From Massilia sp. METH4 (GTDB taxonomy: Bacteria; Pseudomonadota; Gammaproteobacteria; Burkholderiales; Burkholderiaceae_D), in assembly GCF_037094685.1 (NCBI RefSeq), contig NZ_CP146614.1, positions 2,356,001 through 2,420,000 on the forward strand: a stretch of DNA of 64,000 nucleotides. Reading direction: 5' to 3'. The notes beneath the pieces are model-generated. The model searched no databases and was not told where the DNA came from. It saw nothing but the letters and a program-made list of their open reading frames with translations. The position numbers and the translations under genes are program-made. Shown here one piece after another: positions 12,811-48,215 of the stretch (its first letter is position 1; each line of letters opens with the position of its first letter).

Positions 12811-12853
12811 GGTGTCAGGCACCTTTTTCTTCCAGAAAAAGGTGCCTGACACC
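12811..12853. repeat. Intergenic hairpin repeat, GGTGTCAGGCACC type
   Basis: A perfect 19-bp inverted repeat: the left arm at 12811-12829 begins GGTGTCAGGCACC and continues TTTTTC, the loop is TTCCA, and the right arm is at 12835-12853. It is followed by GGTTTTCC. It sits between two convergent genes (amidohydrolase and rapZ) and could terminate both. Related elements recur at 15.2, 18.1, 41.5 and 48.2 kb. Confidence 0.85.
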
Positions 12854-12869
12854 GGTTTTCCTACGCCAA

Positions 12870-13733
12870 CTAACTTTGTTCCCTATGCCTTAGCACCACC
12901 CGCTCCGTCGGATTGAAATGCCGCGCCAGCCGCTCCGCCATGTAGACGGAGCGATGCTGCCCGCCCGTGCACCCGATGGCTACCGTCAGGTAACTGCGAT
13001 TGTCGCTCTTGAATGCGGGCAGCCATTTCTCGATGAATGCGCGGATGTCGGCGAACATTTCCTCGGCACTCGGCTGGGCGTCGAGGAAGGCGATCACGGG
13101 GGCGTCCCGGCCGTTCAAGGGACGCAGGGCCAGGTCGTAGTAGGGATTCGGGATCGCGCGCACGTCGAAGACGAAGTCGGCATCCTGCGGCACGCCCACC
13201 TTGAACGCGAACGATTCGAAGAACAGCGTCAGCGGGGCGTTCTCGCTTTCGACGAGTTCCTTGATCCACGCGCGCAGCTTGTTAGCCGAGATTTCCGACG
13301 TGTCGATCACATGCCCCAGCTGCTCGATCGCGGAGAGGCGTTCCCGTTCCTCGCCGATGCACTCGATCAGCGTGCGCCGCGCGGCCGGATTCTGGCCGGG
13401 GCGGAGTTCATGCGACAGGGGGTGGCTGCGGCGCGTTTCCGAGAAACGGGCAACGAGCGAATGGGTATTCGCGGTGAGGAACATGATCTTCACGTCATGC
13501 CCCAGTTCGCGCAGCTTGCGCACGTCTCCCGGCAGGCTCGCCAGCGACGCGGCACTGCGCGCATCCACCGCCACGGCCAGCGCGGCCGTGCCTTCCTCGG
13601 CCAGTGTGGCGACGAGGTTGGCCAGCAGGGCTGGCGGCAGGTTATCCACGCAGTAGTAGCCGGTGTCTTCGAGAACGTTCAGGGCCACCGATTTGCCCGA
13701 GCCGGAAATGCCGGTAATGAGAACGATACGCAT
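12870..13733 (-). CDS. rapZ: RNase adapter / nucleotide-binding protein RapZ
   Basis: A 287-residue protein. Walker A GISGSGKS lies at about 7-14, followed by VDNLPPALL and a Walker B-like region. The C-terminal domain ends in [21 protein letters not shown], the diagnostic RapZ segment. In E. coli, RapZ guides RNase E to the GlmZ sRNA and senses glucosamine 6-phosphate; in betaproteobacteria it normally sits with ptsN and hprK. Here it is on the minus strand, separated from hprK by a CPA1 antiporter gene. The 3' end faces the amidohydrolase gene across a palindromic repeat. Confidence 0.93.
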
Positions 13734-13775
13734 GCGCGCATGATACCTGAAAACGCGGCTGGCACGATGGGCGCT

Positions 13776-15029
13776 TCAACGCCGCCAGAAACGGTCGAGC
13801 AAAGGTGTCACGCTGGTGCCATGCACCACGATCGACAGCATGATGACGGCGATGGTGATGCTCGTCAGGCTGCGCGCCAGCGGTTCCGGCAAGCCATGGT
13901 TGATCGCATACATCAGGTAGTACAGCGAGCCGATGCCGCGCACGCCGAACCAGGCAATGATCGCCCGGCCCTCCGTATTGCCGGGACGGAGCACGAGCAG
14001 CACGCTGAGCGGCCGGGCCACGAGGAACAGGAACAGCGCGGTGGCCCAGCCGCGCCAGTCGGCGTACCAGTCCACGGCAGCGCCCCCGAGCAGCAGCACG
14101 AGCGTCAGCTCGGACAGGCGCTCCAGGTGTTCCTTGAACAGCAGCGAGTTCGCCGAAATGGTGTCCTGCGCCGGTGCGATGCCGTTCCCGGTCTGCACCG
14201 TCTTGCCGATGCGTGCCGCCAGGGTCAGCTCCGCCTGGCGCAGCGCGACGCCGGCCGCGAACACGGCAAGGAAGCCCCAGGCGCCGGCCGCGACCGCCAA
14301 ACCATACGAGACGGCGATGAGGCCCAGTCCCATCAAGTCGTCAAGGACTTCGTGGCCGGGCCGGTAGAGGCGCAGCCTGTGGCTGAGCCGCGCAAGACCT
14401 GCGCCGCAGGCACCGCCGATCGCGATGCCGCCGACCGTTCCCCACAGCACCTCCAGGCCCAGCCAGTGCAGGCCGTATGGCCCCAGGTCGTGCAGGCCGA
14501 GCAAGCCCAGGCCGAGCATCACGAACGGGAAAGCGCTGCCGTCATTCATGCCCGCCTCGCAGCTCAGTGCGAAGCGCAGCGGGTCCTTGTCGCCGGCGTG
14601 GCGCAGCTGGACGTCGCTGGCGAGCACCGGGTCGGTGGGGGCCAGAGTCGCCCCCAGCAGGACGCCAACCCCGAGCGGCAAGCCCAGCACGTAGTAGCAG
14701 AACAGGGTGATGAGGAGGACCGAGATCGCCATCGCCAGCCACGCCAGGCGGATCGGTGGCATCCAGCGCCGCCGCGTGACCGGCACAGGCATCTTGATGC
14801 CCGCCGAGAACAGCGAAATCAGCACGGCCACCTCGGTCAGCACCTCGAGCAGCGGTGCTTCCGCGATGGGGTCGTAGGAAAAAATATGCAAGCCGAGCGG
14901 CCCCAGCACCAGGCCGACGGCCAGGTAGATCATCGCGGAGGTGAAGGGGAGGTGGGCGATCGGCGTTCCCCACAGTCCGCGTGCCAGCATCAGGAGGCCG
15001 ATCAGCAGGAACCACTGGTAAGTCGCCAT
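13776..15029 (-). CDS. CPA1-family Na+(K+)/H+ antiporter
   Basis: A 417-residue polytopic membrane protein with about 12 hydrophobic segments and a Na+/H+ exchanger domain over most of its length. Motifs include LGATLAPTDPVLASDVQL and EAGMNDGSAFPFVMLGLG, the conserved TDP and ND pair expected for cation and proton binding in the CPA1 family. No RCK or cytoplasmic regulatory domain is present, unlike the antiporter at 2981-4954. It stands between hprK and rapZ, which are usually adjacent, so it is probably an inserted gene. Confidence 0.85.
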   Translation of the reverse strand: MATYQWFLLIGLLMLARGLWGTPIAHLPFTSAMIYLAVGLVLGPLGLHIFSYDPIAEAPLLEVLTEVAVLISLFSAGIKMPVPVTRRRWMPPIRLAWLAMAISVLLITLFCYYVLGLPLGVGVLLGATLAPTDPVLASDVQLRHAGDKDPLRFALSCEAGMNDGSAFPFVMLGLGLLGLHDLGPYGLHWLGLEVLWGTVGGIAIGGACGAGLARLSHRLRLYRPGHEVLDDLMGLGLIAVSYGLAVAAGAWGFLAVFAAGVALRQAELTLAARIGKTVQTGNGIAPAQDTISANSLLFKEHLERLSELTLVLLLGGAAVDWYADWRGWATALFLFLVARPLSVLLVLRPGNTEGRAIIAWFGVRGIGSLYYLMYAINHGLPEPLARSLTSITIAVIMLSIVVHGTSVTPLLDRFWRR

Positions 15030-15459
15030 GGGGGGAACCGGAAGCCGAAGGCCCGATGTTAGCGGGTGTCACCCCGGCGTGGCGCCAGCGAGGCATCTGC
15101 CTTGCGACGCTGCACACGAGCCTCGCAAGGCAGATCGTCTTGGCAGCAGGTCAGGCGCCAGGCTCGGACCAGGCCGTGGTGTCAGGCCGTGGTGTCGGAC
15201 ACGTTTTTCCGGGCATTATCCGGAAAAAGGTGTACGACACCGGTTGTCCGACGATGCATCAAGGGAGAACCGGTGTCGTACACCATTTCCTGCGGAAATG
15301 GTGTACGACACCAAGCCCGACGTTGCGATGAAGGGGACTTCAGTCCCCGCTCATTGCCTGCCGTTGGTGGAGCAGGAATTCGCCGAGCCTGCTCGGCGCT
15401 GGGGAACGGTGCCCGCTTGTAAGCGGGCACTCCTTGGCAACGTTGCGATGAAGGGGACT
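15030..15459. other. 430-bp non-coding stretch dense in palindromes
   Basis: No gene is supported here, between the start of the CPA1 antiporter and the stop of hprK (both minus strand). It contains two GGTGTCGTACACC-type hairpins (15191-15312), one full copy of a 47-bp duplicated element (15320-15366) and part of the other, plus two further perfect hairpins: GCCGAGC/GCTCGGC at 15382-15397 and GTGCCCGCTT/AAGCGGGCAC at 15409-15430. Confidence 0.8.
15191..15312. repeat. Pair of GGTGTCGTACACC-type hairpins
   Basis: The first hairpin (15191-15241) is imperfect: its arms start GGTGTCGGACAC and end GTGTACGACACC around a TTTTTCCGG-type stem. The second (15272-15312) is perfect, with 19-bp arms, a 3-nt TGC loop, and GGTGTCGTACACC followed by ATTTCC. 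The core is the same as in the 48.2-kb hairpin. It lies downstream of hprK. Confidence 0.85.
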
Positions 15460-15486
15460 TCAGTCCCCGCTCATTGCCTGCCGTTG
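15320..15486. repeat. Two identical 47-bp direct repeats, one forming the hprK 3' end
   Basis: Positions 15320-15366 and 15440-15486 are identical over 47 bp, exactly 120 bp apart. Each contains the palindrome GGGGACTTCAGTCCCC. Read on the minus strand, the copy at 15440-15486 encodes the last eight residues of HprK (QRQAMSGD, 15463-15486) and its TGA (15460-15462), and the palindrome spans the stop. The second copy is non-coding. Confidence 0.9.
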
Positions 15487-16395
15487 CCGCTCCATGAACT
15501 CCTGCAAGGTATCGATACCGCGCAGCTGCAGGATGGTATTGCGCACGGCCGCCTCCAGCAGCACGGCGATGTTGCGGCCGGCCGCGACGGGGATCACGAC
15601 CTTGCGGATCGGCAGGCCCAGCACGTCTTCCGTCGGGAACTGGAAGGGCAGGCGCTCCACTTCTTCCTCGAGCGCCGAGCGGCGCACGAGGTGGACGATC
15701 AACTTCAGGCGCATCTTGCGGCGCACGGCCGTTTCGCCGAAGATTGCCTTGATGTCCAGCAGGCCCAGGCCGCGCACTTCGAGCAGGTTCTGCAGCAGGG
15801 GCGGGCAACGGCCCTCGATCATGTTCGGCGCGATGCGGGAAAATTCGACCGCGTCGTCCGCCACCAGGCCGTGGCTGCGCGAAATCAGTTCCAGCCCCAG
15901 CTCGCTCTTGCCGAGCCCGGAATCGCCGGTGATCAGCACGCCGACCCCGAGCACGTCCATGAACACGCCGTGCATGATGATGCGCTGCGCCAGCTTCTTC
16001 GACAGGTACACGCGCAGGAAGTCGATCACCTGCGCGGCGGGCAGCGGCGTGGAGAACAGGGGGATGTTCTTTTCATCGCAGATCGCAAGGATGTCCGGCG
16101 GCGTTTCCAGTCCCTGCGCCACGATCAGCGCCGGCGGGCCACCGGCGATCAGCTCGCCGATCACATGGGCCCGGGTGAGCGCCTTCAGCCGGTGGTAATA
16201 ATTGATTTCCTGGTGGCCGAACACCTGGATGCGGCCCGGGTGGATCGTGTTCAGGTGGCCCACCTGGTCGGCGGCCGAAGCGGCGTCACCGGAGATCGTG
16301 CGCTCGCCGCCGGGAAAGCCCGCGAACCAGCCCAGTTGCAGAGATTCCCGATTGTCGTCGTACAGGCGCTGGATCGTCAGGGGGCTTTGCAGCAT
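15460..16395 (-). CDS. hprK: HPr kinase/phosphorylase HprK
   Basis: A 311-residue enzyme that phosphorylates and dephosphorylates HPr on serine, controlling the regulatory PTS of betaproteobacteria. The N-terminal domain (1-130) is followed by the kinase domain with P-loop GDSGLGKS at 157-164, the catalytic His/Asp region, and the HprK signature [15 protein letters not shown]. The last residues and stop codon come from a 47-bp repeat that is duplicated 120 bp downstream. It is preceded on the same strand by ptsN, whose stop is 35 nt upstream. Confidence 0.93.
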
Positions 16396-16430
16396 GGGCT
16401 GTTCTTATTGGATGGAAACGCGGAGCCCGT

Positions 16431-16913
16431 TCAGCCGGCGGCCTGCAGGCTGGGCTGCCAGTTGACGATGCGGCGATGCACGGAACGGGGATCGGGATCG
16501 GTGGACAGCGCCTGGCGGAATGCATCGTCCGAGAACATTTCCGCGATCTCGGAAAGGATTTCCAGGTGCTGCTGCGTCACGTGATCGGGGATCAGCAGGA
16601 AGAACAGCAGGTTCACCGGCTTGCCGTCCGGCGATTCGAACGGAATCGGTTCGGCCAGCCGCACGAACGCTGCCAGCGGCGATTTCAGGCTTTTCGCCCC
16701 CTTGACCCGGCCGTGCGGCACGGCGACACCATGGCCCAACCCCGTCGAACCCAGCCGTTCACGGGCAAACAGATTGTCCGAAACGGTCGAGCGGGCGATA
16801 CCGCAATTGTTCTCGAAGATCAGGCCTGCTTGCTCGAAAGCGCGCTTCTTGCTGGAGACTTCCAGGTCCAGTTGAACGTTCTCGGGCGAAAGGATTTTAC
16901 TCAGGTTGTTCAT
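16431..16913 (-). CDS. ptsN: Nitrogen-regulatory PTS IIA component (PtsN/EIIA-Ntr)
   Basis: A 160-residue PTS EIIA-2 domain protein. The phosphorylated histidine is His67 in GHGVAVPHGRV. The domain runs the full length and has no membrane partner, as expected for EIIA-Ntr, which regulates K+ transport, phosphate signalling and other targets. ATG 16913 (MNNLSKILSP) is chosen; the frame stays open 52 codons upstream, but that extension is basic and unlike the family. A good sigma-70 promoter lies just upstream. In many proteobacteria ptsN follows hpf on the same strand; here it faces the other way, over 6 kb away. Confidence 0.93.
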   Translation of the reverse strand: MNNLSKILSPENVQLDLEVSSKKRAFEQAGLIFENNCGIARSTVSDNLFARERLGSTGLGHGVAVPHGRVKGAKSLKSPLAAFVRLAEPIPFESPDGKPVNLLFFLLIPDHVTQQHLEILSEIAEMFSDDAFRQALSTDPDPRSVHRRIVNWQPSLQAAG

Positions 16914-17230
16914 AACGCGACGTAATTGGTGCGGCGCACAAAGATGGCTGGCGAGCAGAATTATAGGCCTCTTTCCGTGCCGTGTAACCCGAAATTGCTC
17001 GGACCGGGAACGGCGCCGCGCCGCCGGTCGACCCACCTTGCACGCGCTGGAATGTAGCCGACATGGCAAGCGATGCTCCAGGCGCTATTTCCACGTTCAA
17101 ACAAATGGGAGCGCCGCTTATTCGCTCGTGCAAACCCTGTTTAGCCAATTATTGCGCGTTTCGGCCGAACGCGCTGCGGGGAAGCTGAAGCTGAGCATAC
17201 TTTCACAATGGATACTTTGTGATGGCTCAA
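16914..17230. other. 317-bp intergenic region between queF and ptsN
   Basis: No open reading frame with coding character is seen. The ptsN-proximal part holds a promoter (16960-16988). The rest, toward the queF stop codon, is less GC-rich than the genes around it; I see no repeat, terminator or RNA motif that I can name. Confidence 0.6.
16960..16988 (-). promoter_or_regulatory. Predicted sigma-70 promoter of ptsN-hprK
   Basis: On the minus strand GTTACA (16988-16983) and a perfect TATAAT (16965-16960) are separated by 17 bp. The expected start would be about 40 nt ahead of the ptsN ATG at 16913. Confidence 0.6.
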
Positions 17231-18064
17231 TTATTGTCGTGCGTTGCGTAAATTCGACGGCCTTCCAGCCTTCGTGAAGTTGCTGCGCCAGGGATTGATG
17301 TCGAGGCCGCCACGGCGGGTATACCGGGCATAGACCGTCAGGTGCGAAGGTTTGCATTCGCGCATGATGTCCACGAAGATCCGCTCCACGCACTGCTCGT
17401 GGAACTCGTTGTGCTCGCGAAAGCCGATCAGGTATTTCAGCAGGCTTTCCTGGTCGATCTGCGGTCCGGCATAGCTGATCTGCACGCTGCCCCAGTCCGG
17501 CTGGCCCGTGACGAGGCAGTTCGATTTCAGGAGGTGCGACACGAGCGTTTCCTCGACGGGCGCTTCCTCGAAATTGGCCTTCAGGATCGTGGGCTGCGGC
17601 GAGTAATTGTCGACTTCGATATCGAGGCGGTCCAGCAGCAGGCCTTCCAGCTCGCCCATCTCCAGCTTGCCGAAATCTTCCTGCATCGTCAGCACCACGT
17701 GCACGTTCGCGCCGGTGGCGGCCGACAGGTCCTGTTGCAGCAGGTCGCGCAGCGCTTCCGGTCCACCCAGCCGCGTCTGGTTAAACGAATTCAGGTACAG
17801 CTTGAAGGACTTGGACTCGATGATGTTCGGCGAGTCGGCCGGCACCGTGAAGCGCGCCACGGCCACCTGCGGCTTGCCGCGCATGTTCAGCCACGACAGT
17901 TCGTAGGCATTCCAGATATCGACGCCGAAGAAGGGCAGCGTGCCCGAAAGGCCGAGCTCGTCGCGCTTGCCGACGCGGGGAATCGGAAACAGCAGCTCCG
18001 GCGCGTAGTCGGTGCGGTAAGCGGAGTTCTTGCCGAGTGGAGATTGTTCGGGAGAGTTCGACAT
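17231..18064 (-). CDS. queF: NADPH-dependent 7-cyano-7-deazaguanine reductase QueF
   Basis: A 277-residue enzyme that reduces preQ0 to preQ1 in queuosine synthesis. The length is that of the bimodular (E. coli-type) QueF. The QueF motif region is [13 protein letters not shown] (about 86-98). The catalytic pair is Cys183 ([10 protein letters not shown]) and Asp190, the spacing seen in E. coli (Cys190/Asp197), and the C-terminal half contains the substrate-binding [13 protein letters not shown] segment. No other queuosine genes are in the window, so it appears to be a stand-alone gene downstream of ilvA on the same strand. Confidence 0.94.
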
Positions 18065-18116
18065 GGCAGGCCTTCAAAACGGGACAGCCTGCCATGGTAG
18101 CGGAAAACGACAACCG

Positions 18117-18190
18117 GTGACAGGCACCGGCTTTTTTGAAATATTCCCGAAACCCGGTGACAGGCACCCGGTTTTTTTGAAACATTTACA
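18117..18190. repeat. Direct-repeat array, GTGACAGGCACC type, ~40-bp period
   Basis: GTGACAGGCACC occurs at 18117-18128 and 18157-18168, each followed by C/G and a run of T, then GAAA(T/C)ATT. A third, decayed unit follows up to the ilvA stop region. The same array type with a 41-bp period is at 41.5 kb. It lies between queF and ilvA, downstream of ilvA. Confidence 0.8.
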
Positions 18191-18220
18191 GAAACCTGGT
18201 CCCTGGGGGATGCTCGGCGA

Positions 18221-19753
18221 TTACAGGAACAGCTTGTAGACCGGATTGTGCGTCTCGTCCCAGTACCGGTAGCCCAGCGTGGCGAGGAACTTGCCGAACT
18301 CTTCCATCTCTTCCGGCGGGACTTGCAGCCCGATCAGGATGCGGCCCACGTCGCCGCCTTGCGAGCGGTAGTGGCACAGCGAGATGTTCCAGTTCGGCGC
18401 CATGCTGTCCAGGAAGCGCATCAGCGCGCCCGGGCGCTCGGGGAACTCGAAGCGGTACAGCAGTTCGTCGCGCGCCAGTGCGCTCTTGCCGCCGACCAGG
18501 TGGCGCAGGTGCGACTTGGCCAGTTCGTCATGCGTCAGGTCCAGCGTCTTGAAATCGTGTTCCTCGAAACGGCGCGCCAGCGCGCTCGATTCGCCGCGGT
18601 CGGCGATCTGCACGCCGACGAACACATGGGCCTGTTCCTGGTCGCTGATGCGGTAGTTGAACTCGGTCACGTTGCGCGGGCCGATCAGCGAGCAGAAGCG
18701 CTTGAAGCTGCCGCGCTGTTCGGCCATCGTCACGGCGAACACGGCTTCGCGGAATTCGCCCAGCTCGGCGCGCTCGGCCACGAAGCGCAGCCGGTCGAAG
18801 TTCATGTTCGCGCCGGACGTGATCGTGATCAGCGTCGCGTTCTGGATCGGGTTCTTGGTGAGCGCGGCGCGCTCGACGTAGGCCTTGGCACCGGCCACGG
18901 CCAGGGCGCCGGAAGGCTCGAGGATCGAGCGCGTATCGGTGAACACGTCCTTGATGGCCGCGCAGATCGCGTCGGTGTCCACGATGATCACATCATCCAC
19001 GTACTGCTGCGCGAGGCGGAAGGTTTCCTCGCCAACCAGGCGCACAGCGGTGCCGTCGGCGAACAGGCCCACGTCCGGCAAGGTGACGCGCTCGCCGGCC
19101 TTCAGGCTGCGGGCCATCGCGTCGGCATCGAACGTTTCGACGCCGATGATCTTGATGTCGGGGCGGATCTGCTTGATGTAGGCGGCCACGCCGGAGATCA
19201 GGCCGCCGCCGCCGATCGCCACGAACACGGCATGGATGGGGCCGGAATGCTGGCGCAGGATCTCCAGGCCGATCGTGCCCTGGCCGGCGATCACGTCCGG
19301 ATCGTCGAACGGGTGCACGAACGTGAGCTTCTGTTCCTGTTCCAGCGTGAGGGCATGGTGGTATGCATCGGTGTACGACTCGCCGTGCAGCACCACTTCC
19401 ACGTTGTCGCCGCCGCGCGCCTTCGCCGCCTGGATCTTCACGAGCGGGGTAGTGGTCGGCATCACGATGACGGCGCGGCAACCCATGCGTGCGGCGGACA
19501 GGGCCACGCCCTGCGCATGGTTGCCGGCCGAGGCGCAGATCACGCCGCGCTTCAACTGCGCATCCGACAGGTGGGCCATCTTGTTGTAGGCGCCGCGGAT
19601 CTTGAAGCTGAAAACGTCCTGAATATCCTCGCGCTTGAAGTAAATTCGGTTCTGGTAGCGCTGCGACAGGGTCGGCGCCAGCTCCAGCGGCGTTTCATGG
19701 GCAACGTCGTAGACGCGCGCGGTAAGGATCTTCTTCAGGTAGTCGGTAGTCAT
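18221..19753 (-). CDS. ilvA: Threonine ammonia-lyase, biosynthetic (IlvA)
   Basis: A 510-residue PLP enzyme that converts threonine to 2-oxobutanoate for isoleucine synthesis. The PLP lysine is Lys51 in SFKIRGAYNK, the glycine-rich phosphate-binding loop is AIGGGGLISG, and the C-terminal region (about 335-510) contains two ACT-like regulatory domains with ERPGALMRFL and IGLQVPPEEME. This architecture is that of the isoleucine-inhibited anabolic form rather than the short catabolic TdcB. It is read from ATG 19753. Confidence 0.94.
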   Translation of the reverse strand: MTTDYLKKILTARVYDVAHETPLELAPTLSQRYQNRIYFKREDIQDVFSFKIRGAYNKMAHLSDAQLKRGVICASAGNHAQGVALSAARMGCRAVIVMPTTTPLVKIQAAKARGGDNVEVVLHGESYTDAYHHALTLEQEQKLTFVHPFDDPDVIAGQGTIGLEILRQHSGPIHAVFVAIGGGGLISGVAAYIKQIRPDIKIIGVETFDADAMARSLKAGERVTLPDVGLFADGTAVRLVGEETFRLAQQYVDDVIIVDTDAICAAIKDVFTDTRSILEPSGALAVAGAKAYVERAALTKNPIQNATLITITSGANMNFDRLRFVAERAELGEFREAVFAVTMAEQRGSFKRFCSLIGPRNVTEFNYRISDQEQAHVFVGVQIADRGESSALARRFEEHDFKTLDLTHDELAKSHLRHLVGGKSALARDELLYRFEFPERPGALMRFLDSMAPNWNISLCHYRSQGGDVGRILIGLQVPPEEMEEFGKFLATLGYRYWDETHNPVYKLFL

Positions 19754-19887
19754 GGTCTTCGAACGGAGTGAATCCTGGCGGATGGCGGATGCGTGGCCTT
19801 GGCGACGGGTGACCGGAAGGGTTGCCGAAAGCTGCGCGAATAGAAACAGGATCGCATGGGTGGACGCGCCTGTTCATTCGTGCGGTA

Positions 19888-19912
19888 TTGACAGGGGTCG
19901 AAACATTATAAT
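19888..19912 (+). promoter_or_regulatory. Consensus TTGACA and TATAAT boxes with a short spacer before the YqaA-type gene
   Basis: TTGACA (19888-19893) and TATAAT (19907-19912) are both perfect consensus but only 13 bp apart, shorter than the usual 16-18. The TATAAT box overlaps an in-frame ATG at 19911, which argues that the downstream ATG 20010 is the real start. Confidence 0.4.
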
Positions 19913-20009
19913 GGCAAGCCTGAGCGCTTCGGCAAAACTTCATGTCATTACGCAAATTGACCCCGAACGATTCGCTTCCCCATCATCGACTCCGCATGAT
20001 CGAAACCGC

Positions 20010-25682: not shown

Positions 25683-26030
25683 GTTTCCATGAACCGGGGT
25701 CTAACCCGTTTCCAGGAAATACAGTCATGTAGAACGGCTGCCCGGACCCCGGCGCAGCCGTTTTTCGTTGCGGATACGCTGCGGGGGACAGTCCCCCGGG
25801 GACTGTCCCCTGTTGTTTTGTCCCTCCGGGGACAGTCCCCTGTTGTTTTGCGACCAGCTCAGCGGTAGGGGTAAAGGGGCATCCAAGGCCGCTGGAACGA
25901 GAACATTCAGGCAAGATTCTGTTGCTGCCGGGCTACTTTTTTGCCGAAACGTAGCAGTGCGGCATTGTATGGAGCAGTGGGGCGGACGAGAATAATGATC
26001 GTTCGAAGTCCGTCTTTCCAGGAAGAGTCC
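25683..26030. other. 348-bp intergenic region at the left edge of the accessory block
   Basis: No gene is supported. The DUF971-proximal part carries an ACCGGGGTCTAACCCG-like palindrome (about 25694-25710). The middle holds the GGGGAC repeats (25783-25850). The MCP-proximal part has a Shine-Dalgarno (AGGAAGAG) just ahead of ATG 26031. Confidence 0.6.
25783..25850. repeat. GGGGAC(A/T)GTCCCC repeat cluster
   Basis: Three palindromic cores stand in a row: GGGGGACAGTCCCCC (25783-25797), GGGGACTGTCCCC (25798-25810) and GGGGACAGTCCCC (25828-25840). The last two are each followed by TGTTGTTTTG, making a direct repeat with a 30-bp period. Related GGGGTC/GGGGAC elements are at 44.5 kb. Confidence 0.85.
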
Positions 26031-38610: not shown

Positions 38611-38629
38611 TGCGCCCCAAAAAATTCAC

Positions 38630-40857: not shown

Positions 40858-41475
40858 ATGCCCGAATTCGACACGCGCGACCCTCTCGATCCCAGCTTCT
40901 GGGATGAACGCTTTGCCCGGCAATTCATGCCGTGGGATGCCGGCGGCATTCCGGAACAGTTGCGCACGCTGGTGGCCTCGCGCGACGCGGCCGCCGATGC
41001 CGACATCGTGCCGCCGGTGGCGCTGATCCCCGGCGCCGGCTCCGCCTACGAGCTCGACCTGATGTGCGAGGCGGGCTGGGACGCGACGGCGATCGACTTT
41101 TCGCCGAATGCCGTGGCGCGGGCGCGCAAGGTCGTGCGCCGCTGGCCGGAGCGGGTCGTGCAAGCCGATTTCTTCAGCTACCAGCCGGAAAAGAAGCTCG
41201 ACGTGATCTATGAGCGCGCCTTCCTGTGCGCCATGCCGCCCGAGCATCACGCCCGCGTGGTGCAGCGCTGGGCCGCGCTGCTGCCGCACGACGGCCTGCT
41301 GGCCGGCTACTTCTTCTTCGGCGACGCCGGCAAGGGTCCCCCCTTCGCCATCGCCCGCGCCGAGCTCGACGCGCTGCTGGCGCCGCACTTCACGCTCGTG
41401 GAAGACGAGCCCGTTCCCGACTCGCTGCCCGTGTTCGAAGGCAAGGAGCGGTGGATGGAGTGGCGGCGGCGCTGA
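40858..41475 (+). CDS. Thiopurine S-methyltransferase-like SAM methyltransferase
   Basis: A 205-residue methyltransferase. The N-terminal FWDERFARQFMPWDAGGIPEQL and the SAM-binding IPGAGSAYELDLMCEAGWDATAIDFSPNAV are characteristic of the TPMT family, as are FLCAMPPEHHARVVQRWAALL and LAGYFFFGD. Bacterial members methylate thiols, selenium or tellurium compounds. ATG 40858 immediately follows the ubiB stop, indicating one operon. A repeat array follows. Confidence 0.85.
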   Translation: MPEFDTRDPLDPSFWDERFARQFMPWDAGGIPEQLRTLVASRDAAADADIVPPVALIPGAGSAYELDLMCEAGWDATAIDFSPNAVARARKVVRRWPERVVQADFFSYQPEKKLDVIYERAFLCAMPPEHHARVVQRWAALLPHDGLLAGYFFFGDAGKGPPFAIARAELDALLAPHFTLVEDEPVPDSLPVFEGKERWMEWRRR

Positions 41476-41481
41476 AAACCC

Positions 41482-41617
41482 GTGACAGGCACCGATTTTC
41501 CAGAAACATTTCTCCAGAACCGGTGACAGGCACCGGGGTTTTGGAAATATTTCTTCAGAAGCGGTGACAGGCACCGGGTTTTTGGAAACATTTCTCGAAA
41601 ATCGGAGCCTGTCACCG
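41482..41617. repeat. 41-bp-period direct repeat array, GTGACAGGCACC type
   Basis: GTGACAGGCACC occurs at 41482, 41523 and 41564, exactly 41 bp apart. Each is followed by CG, a T-rich run and GAAA(C/T)ATTTCT. An inverted copy (GAGCCTGTCACC at 41606-41617, then GGTTTTC) closes the array. The spacers are conserved rather than unique, so it is not CRISPR. It lies between the methyltransferase and FmdB genes. Confidence 0.88.
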
Positions 41618-41660
41618 GTTTTCTGCGCCCGCCGGCAACGTTGTGTCCGCAAAAACACTC

Positions 41661-41666
41661 TATAAT
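41661..41666 (+). promoter_or_regulatory. TATAAT -10 box ahead of the FmdB gene
   Basis: A perfect TATAAT lies 33 nt before ATG 41700. A TTGTGT at 41641 is 14 bp upstream, too close for a normal -35. Shine-Dalgarno GCGGAG is at 41688-41693. Confidence 0.5.
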
Positions 41667-41699
41667 TCAGGGTTTTTGATGTTTTTTGCGGAGTAAAAG

Positions 41700-41987
41700 A
41701 TGCCTATCTACGCTTACCGCTGCGAGGAATGTGGCTTTACCAAGGATGTGCTGCAAAAGATCTCCGATCCGCAGCTCACGGAATGCCCTTCCTGCGGCAA
41801 GTCCACCTTCAAGAAGCAATTGACCGCGGCCGGCTTTCAGTTGAAAGGCACCGGCTGGTATGTGACCGATTTCCGTGGCGGCAATGCGCCAGCCACCGGC
41901 GTGGCCGGAGGTTCGGCCAAGAGCGACACGGCGAAATCCGACACATCGCCCGCCCCGGCGCCGGCCCCTGCCGGCGACAAGCCATAA
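41700..41987 (+). CDS. FmdB family zinc-ribbon protein
   Basis: A 95-residue protein with the FmdB/CxxC_CXXC zinc ribbon: CEEC near residues 8-11 and CPSC near 31-34 bind one Zn, followed by KSTFKKQLTAAGFQLKGTGWYVTDF. The C-terminal third is a low-complexity Ser/Ala/Pro tail. FmdB was first described as a regulator of formamidase, but most members are of unknown role. It is linked to DUF502 and aspS, a conserved betaproteobacterial arrangement. Confidence 0.88.
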   Translation: MPIYAYRCEECGFTKDVLQKISDPQLTECPSCGKSTFKKQLTAAGFQLKGTGWYVTDFRGGNAPATGVAGGSAKSDTAKSDTSPAPAPAPAGDKP

Positions 41988-41994
41988 GGCGCCG

Positions 41995-42591
41995 ATGAAC
42001 CTGATACGCAAGTGCTTCCTGACGGGCCTCCTGGTCCTGGTGCCTCTGGCCATCACGGTCTGGGTGCTGAATATCATCATCAGCACCCTGGACCAGTCGC
42101 TGCTGTTCGTCCCGCAGCGCTGGCAGCCGAGCAACCTGGTGGGGTTCGACATCCCCGGCTTCGGGGCGATCCTCACCATCGTCATCGTGTTCGTCGTTGG
42201 CTTGCTGGCCAACAACCTGATCGGCAACTACATCCTGCGGTTGTGGGAAAAGTTGCTGCACCGTATTCCTGTCGTGAGTTCGCTGTACGGCAGCGTGAAG
42301 CAGGTGTCGGACACGCTGTTCTCGTCCTCCGGCAATGCCTTCCGCAAGGCCGTGCTGATTCCTTATCCGCACGCGAACTCGTACACGATCGGGTTCCTGA
42401 CGGGCGCCCCGGGTGGCGACGTGAAAAACCACCTGGTGGGAGACTACGTGTCCGTGTATGTGCCGACGACGCCGAACCCGACCTCCGGCTTCTTCCTCAT
42501 GATGGCGCGTGAAAACGTGGTGGAGCTCGACATGACGGTCGATGCCGCCCTGAAGTACATCGTATCGATGGGCGTGGTGGCGCCGGAATGA
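41995..42591 (+). CDS. DUF502 family membrane protein
   Basis: A 198-residue protein with two N-terminal membrane helices (about 5-27 and 57-80) and a conserved cytoplasmic domain. LVGFDIPGFG, RIPVVSSLYGSVKQVSDTLFSS, FRKAVLIPYPHANSYTIGFLTG and VPTTPNPTSGFFLMM are DUF502 hallmarks. The start is ATG 41995, 7 nt after the FmdB stop; the frame is open further upstream inside fmdB but that part is a shadow. Function unknown. Confidence 0.88.
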   Translation: MNLIRKCFLTGLLVLVPLAITVWVLNIIISTLDQSLLFVPQRWQPSNLVGFDIPGFGAILTIVIVFVVGLLANNLIGNYILRLWEKLLHRIPVVSSLYGSVKQVSDTLFSSSGNAFRKAVLIPYPHANSYTIGFLTGAPGGDVKNHLVGDYVSVYVPTTPNPTSGFFLMMARENVVELDMTVDAALKYIVSMGVVAPE

Positions 42592-42643
42592 TGCGCCCCC
42601 ATCACTCGCCCGAGTAAACAATCAACCCTGAAGAGAAATAACC

Positions 42644-44449
42644 ATGTCTATGCGTACTCATTACTGCGGGCTCACCACCGAAGCCCTGCTGGGCCAAACC
42701 GTCAGCCTGTGCGGCTGGGTGCACCGTCGCCGCGACCACGGCGGCGTGATCTTCATCGACCTGCGCGACCGTGAAGGCCTGGTGCAGATCGTCTGCAATC
42801 CCGAGCAGGCCGAGGTGTTCAAGACGGCCGAGTCCGTGCGTAACGAGTACTGCCTGCGCGTGACCGGCGTGGTGAAGGACCGCCTGGCCGGTACCGTCAA
42901 CAACAACCTGAAGTCCGGCAAGATCGAAGTGATCTGCTCGCAGCTGGAAGTGCTGAACCCGTCCGTGGCCGTGCCGTTCCAGCTGGACGACGACAACCTG
43001 TCCGAAACCACCCGCCTGACGCACCGCGTGCTGGACCTGCGCCGCCCGCAGATGCAGAACAACCTGCGCCTGCGCTACAAGGTCACGATGGAAGTGCGCA
43101 AGTACCTCGACGAGCTGGGCTTCATCGACATCGAGACGCCGACCCTGACCAAGTCCACGCCGGAAGGCGCGCGCGACTACCTGGTACCGTCGCGCGTGAA
43201 CGCCGGCCAGTTCTTCGCGCTGCCGCAGTCGCCGCAGCTGTTCAAGCAGCTGCTGATGGTCGCCAACTTCGACCGCTACTACCAGATCACCAAGTGCTTC
43301 CGCGACGAAGACCTGCGCGCCGACCGCCAGCCGGAATTCACGCAGATCGACTGCGAAACCTCGTTCCTGAACGAGCAGGAAATCCGCGACCTGTTCGAAG
43401 ACATGATCCGCAAGGTGTTCAAGAACACCCTGTCGATCGACCTGCCGAACCCGTTCCCGGTGATGGACTTCGCCACCGCGATGGGCCTGTACGGCTCGGA
43501 CAAGCCGGACATGCGCGTGAAGCTTCAGTTCACCGAGCTGACCGACGTGATGAAGAACGTCGACTTCAAGGTGTTCTCCGCTGCCGCCAACCTGCCGAAC
43601 GGCCGCGTGGTCGGCATGCGCGTGCCGAAGGGTGCCGAGATGCCGCGTTCGGAAATCGACGCGTACACCCAGTTCGTTGCCATCTACGGCGCCAAGGGCC
43701 TGGCCTACATCAAGGTCAATGAAAAGGCCAAGGGCCGCGACGGCCTGCAATCGCCGATCGTGAAGAACATCAACGACGAAGCGCTGGCGCAAATCCTGGA
43801 ACTGACGGGCGCGCAAGACGGCGACCTGATCTTCTTCGGCGCGGACAAGGCCAAGGTGGTCAATGACGCGATCGGCGCGCTGCGCGTGAAGATCGGCCAC
43901 AGCGAATTCGGCAAGAAGAACGGCCTGTTCGACGACGTGTGGGCACCGCTGTGGGTGATCGACTTCCCGATGTTCGAGTACGACGAGGAAGACGACCGCT
44001 GGACCGCCACGCACCACCCGTTCACGGCGCCGAAGGATGGCCACGAAGACATGCTCGAAACCGACCCGGGCGCCTGCCTGGCGAAGGCCTACGACATGGT
44101 GCTGAACGGCTGGGAGCTGGGCGGCGGTTCGATCCGTATCCACCGCGAGGAAGTGCAGTCGAAGGTATTCCGCGCGCTGAAGATCGGCGCCGAGGAAGCG
44201 CGCCTGAAGTTCGGCTTCCTGCTGGACGCGCTGCAGTACGGCGCCCCGCCGCATGGCGGCCTGGCGTTCGGCCTGGACCGTATCGTGACGCTGATGACGA
44301 AGTCGGACTCGATCCGCGACGTGATCGCCTTCCCGAAGACCCAGCGCGCGCAAGACCTGCTGACGCACGCTCCTTCCGAAGTAGACGAAAAGCAACTGCG
44401 CGAGCTGCATATCCGCCTGCGCGCCGCCGAGCCGAAGGTGGCTGGCTAA
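42644..44449 (+). CDS. aspS: Aspartyl-tRNA synthetase
   Basis: A 601-residue class II aminoacyl-tRNA synthetase. It has an OB-fold anticodon-binding domain (about 1-105), class II motifs 1-3 (motif 2 [18 protein letters not shown], motif 3 [14 protein letters not shown]) and a bacterial GAD insertion (about 285-420). Betaproteobacterial enzymes are often non-discriminating and also charge tRNA-Asn; whether this one does cannot be told from sequence alone. It is followed by a strong terminator. Confidence 0.96.
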
Positions 44450-44459
44450 GAAGTGGAGA

Positions 44460-44481
44460 GGGCGCCGAGGCGCCCTTTTTT
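44460..44481 (+). terminator. Rho-independent terminator after aspS
   Basis: A 7-bp stem GGGCGCC / GGCGCCC with a GA loop is followed by six T, 10 nt after the stop codon. Confidence 0.85.
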
Positions 44482-44504
44482 ACATCCGCGGCGGAAGATC
44501 CGCA

Positions 44505-44672
44505 GGGGTCTGTCCCCGGTAAGTGTCGGCGCTTGTGCTTGCAGGCAGCGCTGCGAGGGGACTGACCCCGGTTTTTGCTTGAGCCAACGGCGCGCTGGCA
44601 GAAAACCGGGGTCAGTTCCCTTGAAGCGCCGACAGCGAGCGCGAAGGCCCGCACTTACCGGGGACAGACCCC
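44505..44672. repeat. Nested inverted repeat with GGGGTC/GGGGAC cores
   Basis: The outer arms are a perfect 21-bp inverted repeat: GGGGTCTGTCCCC then GGTAAGTG at 44505-44525, and its complement at 44652-44672. The inner arms are 20 bp with one mismatch: AGGGGACTGACCCC then GGTTTT at 44556-44575, and its complement at 44602-44621. A middle pair GTCGGCGCTT/AAGCGCCGAC also matches, so the 168 bp could fold into one long structure. It lies between aspS and nudB. Confidence 0.9.
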
Positions 44673-44708
44673 AGCGGATCCACCGCCGCTCGAGACCTCG
44701 AGCTGCCG

Positions 44709-45170
44709 ATGAACAAACCCCCAAAAATCCCCATCTCCGTCCTGGTCGTCATCCACACCCCCGACCTGGAAGTGCTGCTGATCGAACGCGCCGGCCACCC
44801 TGGCTTCTGGCAATCGGTCACCGGCTCGCTGGACGCCGTCGACGAGCCCTTGCTGGCCACGGCCACGCGCGAGCTGTTCGAGGAAACCGGCATCGTTGCC
44901 GATGGCGACCGAATCGTGTTGCGCGACTGGCAGATGTCGAATGTGTACGAGATCTACCCGATCTGGCGCCACCGCTATGCGCCCGGCATCACGCACAACA
45001 CGGAGCACGTGTTCAGCGTGGAGGTGCCGCGCGACGTGCCCGTGATGCTGTCGCCGCGCGAGCACACGGCCCATGTGTGGCTGCCCTGGCTGGAAGCCGC
45101 GGACAAATGCTTTTCCGCCTCGAACGCCGAGGCAATCCTGCAATTGCCGCGCGTGCTGGGGAAGCGCTAA
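44709..45170 (+). CDS. nudB: Dihydroneopterin triphosphate diphosphatase (NudB, Nudix)
   Basis: A 153-residue Nudix hydrolase that removes pyrophosphate from dihydroneopterin triphosphate in folate synthesis. The Nudix box is GSLDAVDEPLLATATRELFEETGI (about 37-60); it has one residue more than the classical spacing before the first Glu, a variation I also associate with betaproteobacterial NudB. Position next to aspS is the same as in E. coli, which supports the specific call. Confidence 0.88.
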   Translation: MNKPPKIPISVLVVIHTPDLEVLLIERAGHPGFWQSVTGSLDAVDEPLLATATRELFEETGIVADGDRIVLRDWQMSNVYEIYPIWRHRYAPGITHNTEHVFSVEVPRDVPVMLSPREHTAHVWLPWLEAADKCFSASNAEAILQLPRVLGKR

Positions 45171-45177
45171 GCAGCCT

Positions 45178-45534
45178 TTAAAGGGTAGGCCGCCGCGAGC
45201 GCTGCAGCTGCGCCACCAGCAGCGCGATGCCGGCGGCGGCCAGCAGCGGCAGGTTGGCCGGCTCCGAGACTGACGCCGCCTGGGCCGGGCTGTCTGCCGG
45301 CAAGGCGATGTCTCCGCTGGCTCCATAGATGAGCTGGGTCACGAGGCTGTTGCCGGCGTCAAGCCCTGCCAGGGCTGCGGGTTTGCCAAACGCATTCGTT
45401 TCGGACAGCACGATGTGTGGCACTGCCGGGTCGGCCGGCGCTTCGCCGCCGCCAGGCGCCATCGCCAATGCGGACGCCGATGCCAGTGTTGCCAGTGCAG
45501 TGCAAAAAGTGGTGCAGAACGTCTTGATCGCCAT
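45178..45534 (-). CDS. Small PEP-CTERM-type secreted protein
   Basis: A 118-residue protein with an N-terminal signal peptide (about 1-25, ending ASALAMA), a short mature region, and a C-terminal sorting signal: SEPANLPLLAAAGIALL followed by a basic QRSRRP. This is the tripartite PEP-CTERM pattern (here with SEP in place of PEP) recognised by exosortase. Such proteins are anchored or released at the surface, often with exopolysaccharide. ATG 45534 has a strong GGGAGG Shine-Dalgarno. The exosortase is not in the window. Confidence 0.75.
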   Translation of the reverse strand: MAIKTFCTTFCTALATLASASALAMAPGGGEAPADPAVPHIVLSETNAFGKPAALAGLDAGNSLVTQLIYGASGDIALPADSPAQAASVSEPANLPLLAAAGIALLVAQLQRSRRPTL

Positions 45535-45774
45535 CTTGCCCTCCCGTTCGAGTCAGTGGTCTTATGGAATGTCTCCTTGTGGTTTCCACTATAGCGATAT
45601 CCCGGCTTTTCGCGCCAGCCTATCGTGCGCTGATCACACAATTGAGTGCGGGATGAGGCAAACGAGCCACTGTCCGGGCTACACTGCCGGACTGAGCGGT
45701 TCGAGACTGCAATCGTGTCCCCGGCGCACGATTGCTCAGGAAGAAAGAGCACGGTTGGCGCTAGAATGGCTTTC

Positions 45775-46584
45775 ATGAAGATCAAAGTCGCCACCTACAA
45801 CATCCACAAGGGCGTTTCCTACCGCAGCAAGCCGCGCGTGCTTGCACTCAAGCAAGCCATCGAGGCGTTCGATGCCGACCTGATCTTCCTGCAGGAGGTG
45901 CAAGGGCAGCACGACCGCATCGCCGCCCGGTTCGGGGAAGAGCGCCACGGGCAACGGCACTGGCCGCAGGGCAGCCAGCACGAGTTCTTCGCCGGCGAGT
46001 CCCATCAATCCGTGTATGGCTTGAATGCGCAATACGACCATGGCCACCATGGCAATGCGCTGCTGTCGAAGCACCCGATCGCCAAGTGGACCAATACCGA
46101 TATTTCCGATCATGCCTATGAGGCGCGGGGCATCCTGCACTCGATCGTCGAAACGCCCAAGGGCGTCGTGCATTGCTACGTGATCCACCTGGGCCTGTTC
46201 GAGCGCAGCCGCGTGCGGCAAACGCAGGCGCTGATCGACGCGGTCAACTCGTCCGCACCGAACAACGAGCCGGTGATCATCGCCGGCGACTTCAACGACT
46301 GGCGCAATACCCTGAGCGCCAAACTGCACAAGGCGCTGGGAGTGGTCGAGGTGTTCGACGAAATCGGTGCCGGCTCCAGCCTGGGCGACCTGGTCCGTAC
46401 CTTGGCGCGGCGGCAGGCAGCCATCCGTCCGGCCCGCACCTTCCCATCCGCCTTGCCCTTCTTCCGCCTGGATCGCATCTACGTGCGCGGCTTCGAGGTA
46501 GAATCGGCGCAGGTCCTGCACGGCCCCATGTGGGCCAAGCTCTCGGACCATGCGCCGCTCGTCGCTACCTTGAAACTGTTATAG
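45775..46584 (+). CDS. Endonuclease/exonuclease/phosphatase family protein
   Basis: A 269-residue EEP-fold enzyme. KVATYNIHKG (start), FLQEVQ (catalytic Glu), HLGLFERSR, AGDFNDWR (metal-binding Asp/Asn) and the terminal SDHAPLVATL (catalytic Asp-His) are all present, so it should be catalytically active on nucleic acid or phosphoester. ATG 45775 is preferred; ATG 45766 is 3 codons earlier and overlaps a TAGAAT -10-like box. It is followed after 4 nt by the PLD gene, a pairing seen in other betaproteobacteria. Confidence 0.85.
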   Translation: MKIKVATYNIHKGVSYRSKPRVLALKQAIEAFDADLIFLQEVQGQHDRIAARFGEERHGQRHWPQGSQHEFFAGESHQSVYGLNAQYDHGHHGNALLSKHPIAKWTNTDISDHAYEARGILHSIVETPKGVVHCYVIHLGLFERSRVRQTQALIDAVNSSAPNNEPVIIAGDFNDWRNTLSAKLHKALGVVEVFDEIGAGSSLGDLVRTLARRQAAIRPARTFPSALPFFRLDRIYVRGFEVESAQVLHGPMWAKLSDHAPLVATLKLL

Positions 46585-46588
46585 CGTT

Positions 46589-47758
46589 ATGCGCCCCGTC
46601 GATTTCATCGCCGACAACGAAGTCAAGCTCCTGCACTGCGGTACCGAATTCTTCCCGGCCTTGCTGGAAGCAATCGATGCCGCGCAGTATGACGTGTATT
46701 TCGAAACGTATATCTTCGCCGACGATGAAACGGGGCAGGCGGTGCAAGCGGCGCTGATGCGCGCCGCGCAACGGGGCGTTACCGTGCGCATGATCACCGA
46801 TTGGTTCGGCACGGGAGCGCGGCGTGTGCAGCGCATGCATGGGCAGTTGATCGAAGCGGGCGTCGAGCACCGTATCTTCAACCCCTGGTTCAAGCGCGGC
46901 ATTTCTCGCACGCACCGCAAGATCTGCGTGGTCGACCGCTGCATTGCCTTCGTTGGCGGCATCAACGTCAACGACGACATGTACTGCGACTACGACCACA
47001 GCATCGCCCTGGCCGCGCCGCGCTGGGATTTCGCGGTGGCCGTGAAAGGGCCGCTGGTGGCGAACATCCATCGCGAAGCGGTGGCGCAATGGCGGCGCCT
47101 GGGCCGCATGCCGCTGACCGAAAGGATCGGCCTGTACCAGGAAACACGGCGCGCCAACAAGGCCGCCGCCGAAGCCGCCACAACGGTGCAAGCCGGCTTC
47201 GTGGTGCGCGACAACCTGCGCAACCGCCACACCATCCAGCGCGCTTACCTGAAGGCCATGGGCGTAGCAAAGAAGAGCGTGCTGCTGGCCAACCCGTATT
47301 TCGCGCCGGGCCGCAAGTTCCGGCGCGCCCTGTCGCAGACGGCCCAGCGTGGCGTGCAGGTGACGCTGCTGATCGGCGTGGGCGAGCACTGGCTGCAGGA
47401 TGCCGTGGCGCACTCGTTCTACCCCAAGCTGCTTGCCTCCGGCGTGCGGCTGGTGGAATACCGCAAGACCCAGCTCCATGCGAAGGTGGCCGTCATCGAC
47501 GATGAGTGGGCAACCGTCGGCTCTTCCAATGTGGACGGGTTGAGTCTTTTCTTGAACCAGGAAGCGAACGTCGTGATCAAGGATGCCGCCTTCGCCCGGG
47601 ACCTGCGCCGCCACATCGAGGCAGCGCTCGCCGAGGGCGTGGAAATCCACCCGCACGAATACGAACACGTCGGCCGCTTCCGCCGCATCGGCTACGAGAT
47701 CGCCTACGTGGTGTACCGCACGCTGATGCGCATTTTTGCAGTAGGAAAGTACGCTTGA
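46589..47758 (+). CDS. clsB: Phospholipase D-type cardiolipin synthase (ClsB-like)
   Basis: A 389-residue PLD-superfamily enzyme with two HKD motifs: THRKICVVD (about 108-116) and LHAKVAVID (about 295-303), the latter followed by GSSNVDGLS. The order and spacing match ClsB (YbhO), which makes cardiolipin from phosphatidylglycerol or phosphatidylethanolamine. No N-terminal membrane helices are present, unlike ClsA. Its stop overlaps the Hsp15 ATG (TGATG). The EEP gene upstream is the usual partner (YbhP-like). Confidence 0.87.
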   Translation: MRPVDFIADNEVKLLHCGTEFFPALLEAIDAAQYDVYFETYIFADDETGQAVQAALMRAAQRGVTVRMITDWFGTGARRVQRMHGQLIEAGVEHRIFNPWFKRGISRTHRKICVVDRCIAFVGGINVNDDMYCDYDHSIALAAPRWDFAVAVKGPLVANIHREAVAQWRRLGRMPLTERIGLYQETRRANKAAAEAATTVQAGFVVRDNLRNRHTIQRAYLKAMGVAKKSVLLANPYFAPGRKFRRALSQTAQRGVQVTLLIGVGEHWLQDAVAHSFYPKLLASGVRLVEYRKTQLHAKVAVIDDEWATVGSSNVDGLSLFLNQEANVVIKDAAFARDLRRHIEAALAEGVEIHPHEYEHVGRFRRIGYEIAYVVYRTLMRIFAVGKYA

Positions 47759-48138
47759 TGGATAACGTAAGGATCGACAAGTGGCTGTGGGCCGCGCGCT
47801 TCTTCAAGACGCGCAACCTGGCCATCGACGCGATCGATACCGGTAAGGTGAAGATCAACGGCGACCGCGTGAAACCCGCGCGGCTGCTCAAGCTGGGCGA
47901 AAAGCTGTACATCAACAACGGCTCCGACGAATGGGACGTGCTGGTGGTGGGCCTTTCCGACCAGCGGCAGGGAGCCCCGATTGCCCGCACCCTCTATGAG
48001 GAAAGCGCCGAATCGATCGCCCGGCGCGAAAAGGAATCGGAACGGCGCCGGCTGTTCCACGAACCGGCCGCCGACTTCAAGGGCCGGCCCACGAAGCGGG
48101 ACCGGCGCGTGCGCGAGCAGATCGACCACGGCGAGTAA
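47758..48138 (+). CDS. hslR: Heat-shock RNA-binding protein Hsp15 (S4 domain)
   Basis: A 126-residue protein with an N-terminal S4 RNA-binding domain (about 4-65: VRIDKWLWAARFFKTRNLA, VKINGDRVKPARLLKLGE) and a basic C-terminal extension. Hsp15 binds free 50S subunits carrying a nascent chain and rescues stalled translation. Its ATG overlaps the clsB stop. A perfect 24-bp hairpin repeat lies just downstream and may end the transcript. Confidence 0.92.
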   Translation: MDNVRIDKWLWAARFFKTRNLAIDAIDTGKVKINGDRVKPARLLKLGEKLYINNGSDEWDVLVVGLSDQRQGAPIARTLYEESAESIARREKESERRRLFHEPAADFKGRPTKRDRRVREQIDHGE

Positions 48139-48160
48139 GCCCCGCGCCCCACGAGGCGCT

Positions 48161-48215
48161 GGTGTCGTACACTATTTTCCGGGGCGCTTCACCCCGGAAA
48201 ATAGTGTACGACACC
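48161..48215. repeat. Perfect 24-bp hairpin repeat, GGTGTCGTACAC type
   Basis: The left arm at 48161-48184 begins GGTGTCGTACAC and continues TATTTTCCGGGG. The loop is CGCTTCA, the right arm is 48192-48215, and GGTTTTCC follows. The stem is perfect over 24 bp. It lies 22 nt after the Hsp15 stop and may act as a terminator. Confidence 0.9.

Follow-up and report, generated by a model that had tools for sequence, protein, structure and literature searches.

Intergenic repeats of Massilia sp. METH4 as probable non-autonomous copies of the inverted repeats of Y1 transposases

Intergenic sites in a 64,000-nucleotide stretch of Massilia sp. METH4 (hereafter the window; positions 2356001-2420000 of the single 6,881,065-bp contig NZ_CP146614.1; genome label G000; 64.8% GC) contain repeats built on a 13-nt core, i.e., a GG(T/G)G arm, a five-nucleotide centre and the complementary arm. 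These elements probably derive from Y1/HUH transposases of the TIRYT branch (RAYT/TnpA-REP superfamily), as non-autonomous copies of their terminal inverted repeats. Every lineage of transposases would have a version of its own, with a GGGG or GGTG arm, a 5-nt centre, the complementary arm, an A run before and a T run after. Acting on single-stranded, folded DNA, the enzyme would disperse pairs and arrays between genes, and the copies would persist chiefly downstream of genes' 3' ends. A change in the recognition sequence of a transposase, like loss or replacement of its gene, would let a new subfamily expand while the earlier one persists. Cleavage, transfer, mobility and the order of these events are what we infer; the observations are given below.

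Exact cores were counted in 61 stretches totalling 1.264 Mb (the window and 60 others of 20 kb each). The 286 cores found exceeded the 51 to 76 obtained in ten third-order Markov copies, and single centres occurred up to 38 times against an expectation of 0.1. The excess lay mostly in eleven centres (canonical form), namely ACAGG (38 occurrences), TACGA (15), TCGCA (15), TCAGA (14), TCCGA (14) and CCTGA (4) with GGTG arms, and ACAGT (32), ACAGA (22), TCAGA (6), ACGTA (5) and ACTGA (5) with GGGG arms. These eleven "amplified" centres were picked after the counts had been seen; outside the set, GGTG:CCAGG and GGTG:CCGGC reached 5 each (0.7 and 1.3 expected). Amplified cores numbered 170, of which the window accounts for 15 and the remaining 1.2 Mb for 155; this extrapolates to about 890 in the genome, or 863 when the window and three transposase-locus stretches were left aside. 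Over the whole genome, the pattern GGKGWCDBDCMCC gave 508 and 531 matches on the two strands, versus 20 and 21 for the reversed pattern; these strand matches are not a count of sites because some cores match both strands. Matches per strand ranged from 9 to 529 in 24 further genomes of the genus, some of which did not exceed the control. The repeated core is thus more frequent than chance, as the original prediction had expected of a count set against base composition, and a chance origin was ruled out by the Markov copies together with the reversed pattern.

The suggestion that RAYT-type genes would lie elsewhere in the genome was also borne out: four Y1_Tnp matches were found, all with PF01797 above its cut-off (loci L001 to L004) and with related cores beside them, and three of the four (L001, L002 and L003) are flanked by their own, dispersed core version. 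On one flank of L001 (203 amino acids) lie two ACTGT cores, and on its other flank an ACAGT core accompanied by degenerate copies. L002 (259 amino acids, HTH_23) has GGGGTCTGACCC on both sides, its GGGGTCTGACC cores lying inside GTGTC...GAGCTC-type arms, and outer arms of this type are dispersed elsewhere (copies in L035, L040, L051 and L058). L003 (210 amino acids), near greB, carries a TCGCA pair on its 5' side, and on the other side just the outer arm GGTTTTCTCTTGAGCTCGC, followed by an IS110-type gene. Cores were found on one side only of L004, which reads DQFH instead of HUH and is therefore probably not catalytic (protein at L004:1168-1914). IS110-type transposase genes adjoin two of the Y1 genes (L003:96-1121 and L002:119-1222), the one in L003 occupying the expected place of the second inverted repeat.

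Residues H60-V61-H62 and Y120 were invariant (alignment A1). The motifs NHVH, WE and YIELNP are present in L001, L003 reads YIEANP, and NHVH together with YIELNP occurred in 97 of 149 relatives. The AlphaFold model of L003 (pLDDT 89.9) predicted an HUH-type fold, its best match being 4ER8, TnpA-REP bound to a REP hairpin (E 1.3e-8). The same structure ranked first for a profile of eight relatives (E 1.2e-4); a search of the PDB with the single sequence gave nothing at 0.001. This predicted catalytic fold is that of the IS200/IS605 transposases, which are reported to recognise hairpins as single strands; a difference is that the genes of this genome are single and divergent, with inverted repeats at their ends. 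GRP was found in the last 40 residues of 97 of 149 proteins (5.4 expected from shuffled tails), L001 being without it. We take this basic, GRP-containing tail to be AT-hook-like; its tie to the A/T runs is a guess.

Relatives of these genes showed the same arrangement. With L003 as query, matches were obtained in 191 of the 195 genomes of the family, and the loci among the best 80 of 583 matches belonged, by record title, mainly to beta- and gamma-proteobacteria, with some of delta type and others. The flank test was entered by 161 loci, 159 of them with enough flank, and retained inverted repeats scoring at least 15 between the two flanks. Such repeats flanked 103 of the 159 genes, versus one of 140 controls with flanks shifted 900 bp outward, and the signature G(G/T)G(A/T)CNG was found in 82 versus no controls. 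Among the 21 repeats without the signature, about 17 keep related cores by eye, e.g., GGGGACGTACCCC or GGGGCCAGGCTC. At least four loci were counted twice in this set (L071/L140, L077/L149, L080/L177 and L115/L195, the last with identical proteins).

Core and transposase varied together. In a tree of 68 hand-picked rows (12 of the 161 loci, L211 among them, lacked a clean frame and were left out), rows sharing a core clustered, namely ACAGT (5 rows), ACGTA (3), GGGGTCAGAGCAC (3) and GGGGCCAGGCTC (3), and the GGTG-arm clade contained G000, G145, G003 and Pseudoduganella umbonata. For 87 loci with a readable core and less than 90% identity (the core of L065 was entered by hand, its second flank having been lost), a Mantel test of transposase identity against core distance gave a rho of -0.43, which 0 of 2000 permutations reached. 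Identical cores accounted for 44% of pairs at 60% or more transposase identity, and for at most 1% below. Centre and arms thus largely track the transposase lineage, and the centres therefore mark subfamilies. The elements had been described as one family with interchangeable centres: the shared core stands, at the level of a superfamily, and free exchange of centres over all arms was rejected on the tree and the Mantel test. A second Y1 clade, genus-wide and with short branches (L100, L101, L102, L104, L106, L206-L208 and L215-L219), has mostly weak flanking GGGACAGAGT-type repeats and looks vertically kept.

Each of four core patterns, chosen from flanks already seen, was counted in 36 genomes, resident status resting on the Y1 loci read, a subset of the transposases of these genomes. 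ACAGT matched 81 times in G000, 65 in G172, 45 in G003 and 34 in G020, all four with an ACAGT-flanked transposase (L001, L067, L212 and L196, respectively), 6 times in G145 and not at all in the other 31 genomes. Transposases flanked by ACGTA accompanied 89 matches in G020 (L300), 54 in G002 (L096) and 39 in G214 (L094); G015, G005 and G023 had 5, 4 and 2, and 28 genomes none. TCGCA matched 60 times in G000 and at most 4 times, the control level, in all others. GGTGACAGGCWCC reached 183 in G145, where L066 is so flanked, and 8 in G020, with at most 2 elsewhere save for the two genomes given below; in G003 a near version, GGTGACAGACACC, adjoins L195. Genome counts follow the resident transposase, with the exception of several orphan families, including the largest one in G000.

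These exceptions and several other observations weigh against an origin of the elements from transposase inverted repeats. ACGTA matched 38 times in G000 and 36 in G003, where no Y1 locus read is so flanked; GGTGACAGGCWCC matched 179 times in G000, as its largest family, and 91 times in G003, with no transposase so flanked in either. The core families of G000 (about ten) outnumber its Y1 genes (four, with the HUH motif of L004 broken). Mean mismatches between partner cores were 0.00-0.23 in four GGTG orphan families, 0.33 for TCGCA, 0.20 for ACAGT and 0.67-0.74 in two GGGG orphan families, the orphan GGTG families being no more decayed than resident ones and the orphan GGGG families more so. 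In the tree, 17 forks are unresolved, the core GGGGACAGACCCC flanks the distant transposases L095 and L074, and the supported clade L068/L073/L080 has mixed cores. The RAYT model NF047646 of NCBIfam (cut-off 80 bits) gave 89.6 for L002, and L001 (78.3), L003 (66.5) and L004 (54) fell below the cut-off. No clean insertion pair was found and no transposition was observed.

The orphan families would be either the legacy of lost transposases or the work of one enzyme accepting several centres. In the second case L003, or a recently lost enzyme, would accept all GGTG-arm cores, and centres would be interchangeable within the GGTG set. At least four GGTG families of G000 (ACAGG, TCGTA, TCAGA and TCGGA) are without their own transposase and have paired cores as intact as those of TCGCA, which makes such an enzyme conceivable. 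It appears doubtful all the same, since the GGTG-arm transposases of relatives each carry a single version beside the gene and TCGCA is abundant in G000 alone among the 36 genomes.

Occupancy of the same site differed between related species. In each of 33 genus genomes the queF-ilvA space could be located; of the 30 spaces read by eye, 14 hold a core member, 2 a GTAG-type repeat and 13 none, and one (L254) was covered in part. Occupants were an ACAGG array in G000, GGTGACAGGCTCC in G145, a AGGGACGGACCCT pair in G003, a GGGGACAGACCCC pair in G172 and GGGGTC(A/T/G)GACCC-type cores in most others; the copy of G020 is interrupted and that of G009 degenerate. The core at this place is that of a resident transposase in G145 (L066), G172 (L095) and G003 (L299), and in G000 it belongs to an orphan family with no resident transposase. 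At the aspS site, 7 of 22 genomes hold a core member by eye, one a GTAG-type repeat and 14 none; for the 15191/15272 site, both flanks were found in only 3 of 22 genomes. GTAG-type-like REPs with GTAGGGCGGATTA were seen at sites that hold TIRYT-type cores elsewhere (L237 in G023 and L245 in G015 at queF-ilvA; L287 in G015 at aspS). Different members in the queF-ilvA and aspS spaces of several species could also come from change in place, gene conversion turning the old repeat at each site into the current version; this is unlikely, given that the queF-ilvA elements differ in length, layout and junctions and that 13 of 30 genomes have no element there.

The greB place showed a comparable diversity on the side of the transposase. 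The greB gene lay within the fetched flank of at least 17 of 164 locus ids (16 places), a lower bound because most flanks were 1.5 kb or less. Near greB, identity to the G000 copy was 77-98% for GreB and 40-77% for the transposase, e.g., 97.8% versus 66-77% in G020 (broken frame), 97.3% versus 52% in P. umbonata, 92-94% versus 62% in G145 and 90% versus 49% in G172. Repeats at this place were TCGCA in G000, GGTGTCGGACACC in G020 (with GGTGTCTGACAC on the other side), GGTGACAGGCTCC in G145, AGGGACGGACCCT in P. umbonata, GGGGACAGACCCC in G172, GGTGTCTGACCC in G107 and AGGGTCAGACCCT in G183. Near-greB transposase rows did not form a single clade; the genes may have changed rapidly in place or been replaced by others. 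With their differing repeats in sister species, these transposases resemble the "orthoswitch", which the excerpted text of PMC3686654 describes as syntenic RAYTs with different repeats, older repeats remaining. Genes of the L001 type (L162, L196, L212 and L067) all carry ACAGT cores and are close to an SGNH-hydrolase-like gene, so labelled from inspection of its protein sequence.

The window contains 20 exact cores, 15 of them at the elements of the original prediction (12811, 12841, 15229, 15272, 15300, 18116, 18156, 25784, 25798, 25828, 41522, 41563, 44505, 44557 and 44660) and five with unrelated centres, counted as background (11611, 13815, 39498, 61543 and 62825). All seven centres that it named are present, TCGGA solely in the imperfect copy at 15191. 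The claim that nearly all elements hold the core agrees with these 15 and needs qualifying at three places: the elements at 15191 (GGTGTCGGACACG) and 41482 (CCGTGACAGGCACC) start with one imperfect arm and have an exact core further on, and the element at 48161 (GGTGTCGTACACT) has no exact core, being one base off. Two inverted GGTG-TCAGG-CACC cores form the hairpin at 12811..12853, downstream of rapZ in a space between convergent genes. Between hprK and an antiporter-like gene lie an inverted pair at 15191..15241 (imperfect left core TCGGA, right core TACGA) and a TCGTA/TACGA inverted pair with a 19-bp stem at 15272..15312. A direct array of GGTGACAGGCACC with a 40-bp period occupies 18116..18209 (+ strand) between ilvA and queF, and units of GGTGACAGGCACC, the last one inverted, make up the array at 41482..41620 (exact cores at 41522 and 41563). 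The ACAGT, ACTGT and ACAGT cores with TGTTGTTTTG tails at 25784..25840 are the version flanking the transposase L001. A nested composite with three exact GGGG cores (44505, 44557 and 44660) spans 44488..44690, between aspS and the dihydroneopterin triphosphate diphosphatase gene, and a long hairpin at 48161..48215, after an Hsp15-like gene, has a TCGTA core with one arm base changed (CACT). The composite (44488-44690; about 190 bp) has many similar places in G000, G003, G020 and G145 and is possibly a repeat family of its own. A 46-bp direct repeat (15313-15358 and 15439-15484) was seen in and beside the hprK 3' end, where G003 has several tandem copies of a unit of about 120 bp.

Folded as single-stranded DNA, six of seven tested window elements (a set from which the 44505 composite was left out) outdid every one of 200 shuffles (z -4.5 to -12.2), and the folding of the direct array 18112-18210 stood out less (z -2.1; 6 of 200 shuffles as good). 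The 170 amplified cores fell into 83 clusters, of which 25 were single, 38 double and 20 of three to five. GGTGTC families occurred mostly as inverted pairs with short spacers, and the ACAGG family mostly at a spacing of about 40 bp, direct and inverted. A G(A/G)AANNTTTC spacer motif lay within 40 nt of 16% of cores versus 0.3% of random places, and the flanks were enriched in A before the core and in T after it.

Gene calls for assessing placement came from a simple codon-based caller developed for this analysis. Amplified cores were intergenic in 153 of 170 cases, versus 27 of 116 for other arm-N5-arm matches; 17 lay inside called genes, many of them close to called ends. None of the window cores fell within a called gene, in agreement with the statement that no gene is interrupted. 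The 3'-end bias proposed along with it was found as well, elements occupying 39 of 108 convergent, 33 of 335 co-directional and 1 of 125 divergent spaces (40 bp or longer). In the 33 co-directional spaces, median distances were 52 bp to the 3' end of the upstream gene and 118 bp to the downstream start, the core being nearer to the upstream 3' end in 20. A similar placement pattern is given for REPs in the excerpts of PMC3733652.

Such hairpins could instead have arisen, or be maintained, chiefly through selection at 3' ends for bidirectional termination or mRNA stabilisation, the transposase link being secondary. Beyond the convergent and 3'-end bias and the stable folding, a scan of 12000-19500 gave 12 terminator-like sites versus 5.6 expected, 8 of the 12 within elements. 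This reading is nevertheless distinctly unlikely. The aspS site keeps a GC stem and T run beside the gene in 19 of 22 genomes by eye, including 5 of the 7 occupied ones, i.e., with and without the element, which is therefore not the gene's own terminator there; 13 of 30 queF-ilvA spaces do without any element. Selection for termination leaves the match between centre and transposase unexplained, and the bias itself may also arise through loss of copies from promoters.

Among published systems, an origin from transposase inverted repeats finds its counterpart in the TIRtrons of Di Nocera et al. 2013 (PMC3733652, excerpts), inverted repeats with a GGGGWSAS motif beside "TIRYT" transposases. Shared traits are a Y1 gene between inverted repeats (on both sides of L001 and L002, on one side of L003 and L004), a GGGGWSAS-like core in part of the elements (GGGG-arm cores such as GGGGACAG and GGGGTCAG), dispersal of repeats as pairs or clusters, and the coexistence in one genome of several genes and several repeat families associated with them. 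The view that no named family fits the elements consequently holds for the GGTG-arm cores, which lie outside GGGGWSAS, and fails for GGGG-arm ones such as these; copy number is also high here, versus "moderately abundant" in those excerpts. In the excerpted text of PMC6006769, 20 of 26 TIRYTs belong to subclass 2.1, a large Y1 subclass, all 20 with a helix-turn-helix (HTH) domain, REP-like sequences are absent near subclass-2.1 genes, and identity with TIRYTs is left open. The present system differs in having repeats beside its genes and in L001 and L003 having no Pfam HTH match. None was found in L004 either, and HTH_23 in L002 scored just above the cut-off; the genes are not placed firmly in subclass 2.1 (RAYT group 1) because the C-terminal HTH-type extension expected of its members was not found.

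GTAG-type REP/RAYT systems (REPtrons; covered by PMC2817692 and PMC8266576) and REPINs share palindromic intergenic repeats, inverted doublets and 3'-end placement with the present elements, according to excerpts of PMC2817692 and PMC3686654, and in the orthoswitch described there each transposase likewise has a repeat of its own, transposases in syntenic positions differ in their repeats, and older repeats remain. The transposase motifs differ, being NHVH and YIELNP here. Inverted pairs forming a hairpin, as in REPINs, were found mostly in GGTGTC families, the ACAGG family having direct arrays as well. GTAG REPs were rejected, GT(A/G)G lying within 10 nt of 2 of the 170 cores, i.e., more rarely than at random places (10.2%), as were CGTC REPs, with the tag at 4 of 170 (8.4% at random places), and a known Rfam family, with no window match above the gathering score. 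Titles and abstract starts of the Massilia literature on extragenic palindromic sequences contained none on such repeats, no title was relevant among the matches listed for RAYT with beta-proteobacterial names, and six core sequences did not occur in the literature searched, where the term TIRYT appeared in two papers.

The general kind of element (TIRtron/REP) is thus known; novelty lies in the subfamilies with GGTG arms, in the copy number and in the switching within the TIRYT branch. Tentatively, core centre and arms may be a readable recognition code of TIRYTs, which the greB-side transposase, far more divergent than GreB, would repeatedly change; each change would reseed gene 3' ends with a new subfamily and leave a layered record of past codes, and the basic GRP-containing, AT-hook-like tail may recognise the A/T runs on either side of the core. 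The TIRYT branch was little documented before, and many genomes now show repeats, transposase and their covariation side by side. The matched and mismatched pairs found in nature (TCGCA, ACAGG, ACAGT, ACGTA and ACAGA) allow direct tests of recognition. An origin from transposase inverted repeats would also account for a frequent type of intergenic hairpin in the genus, which may be mistaken for terminators or regulatory RNAs.

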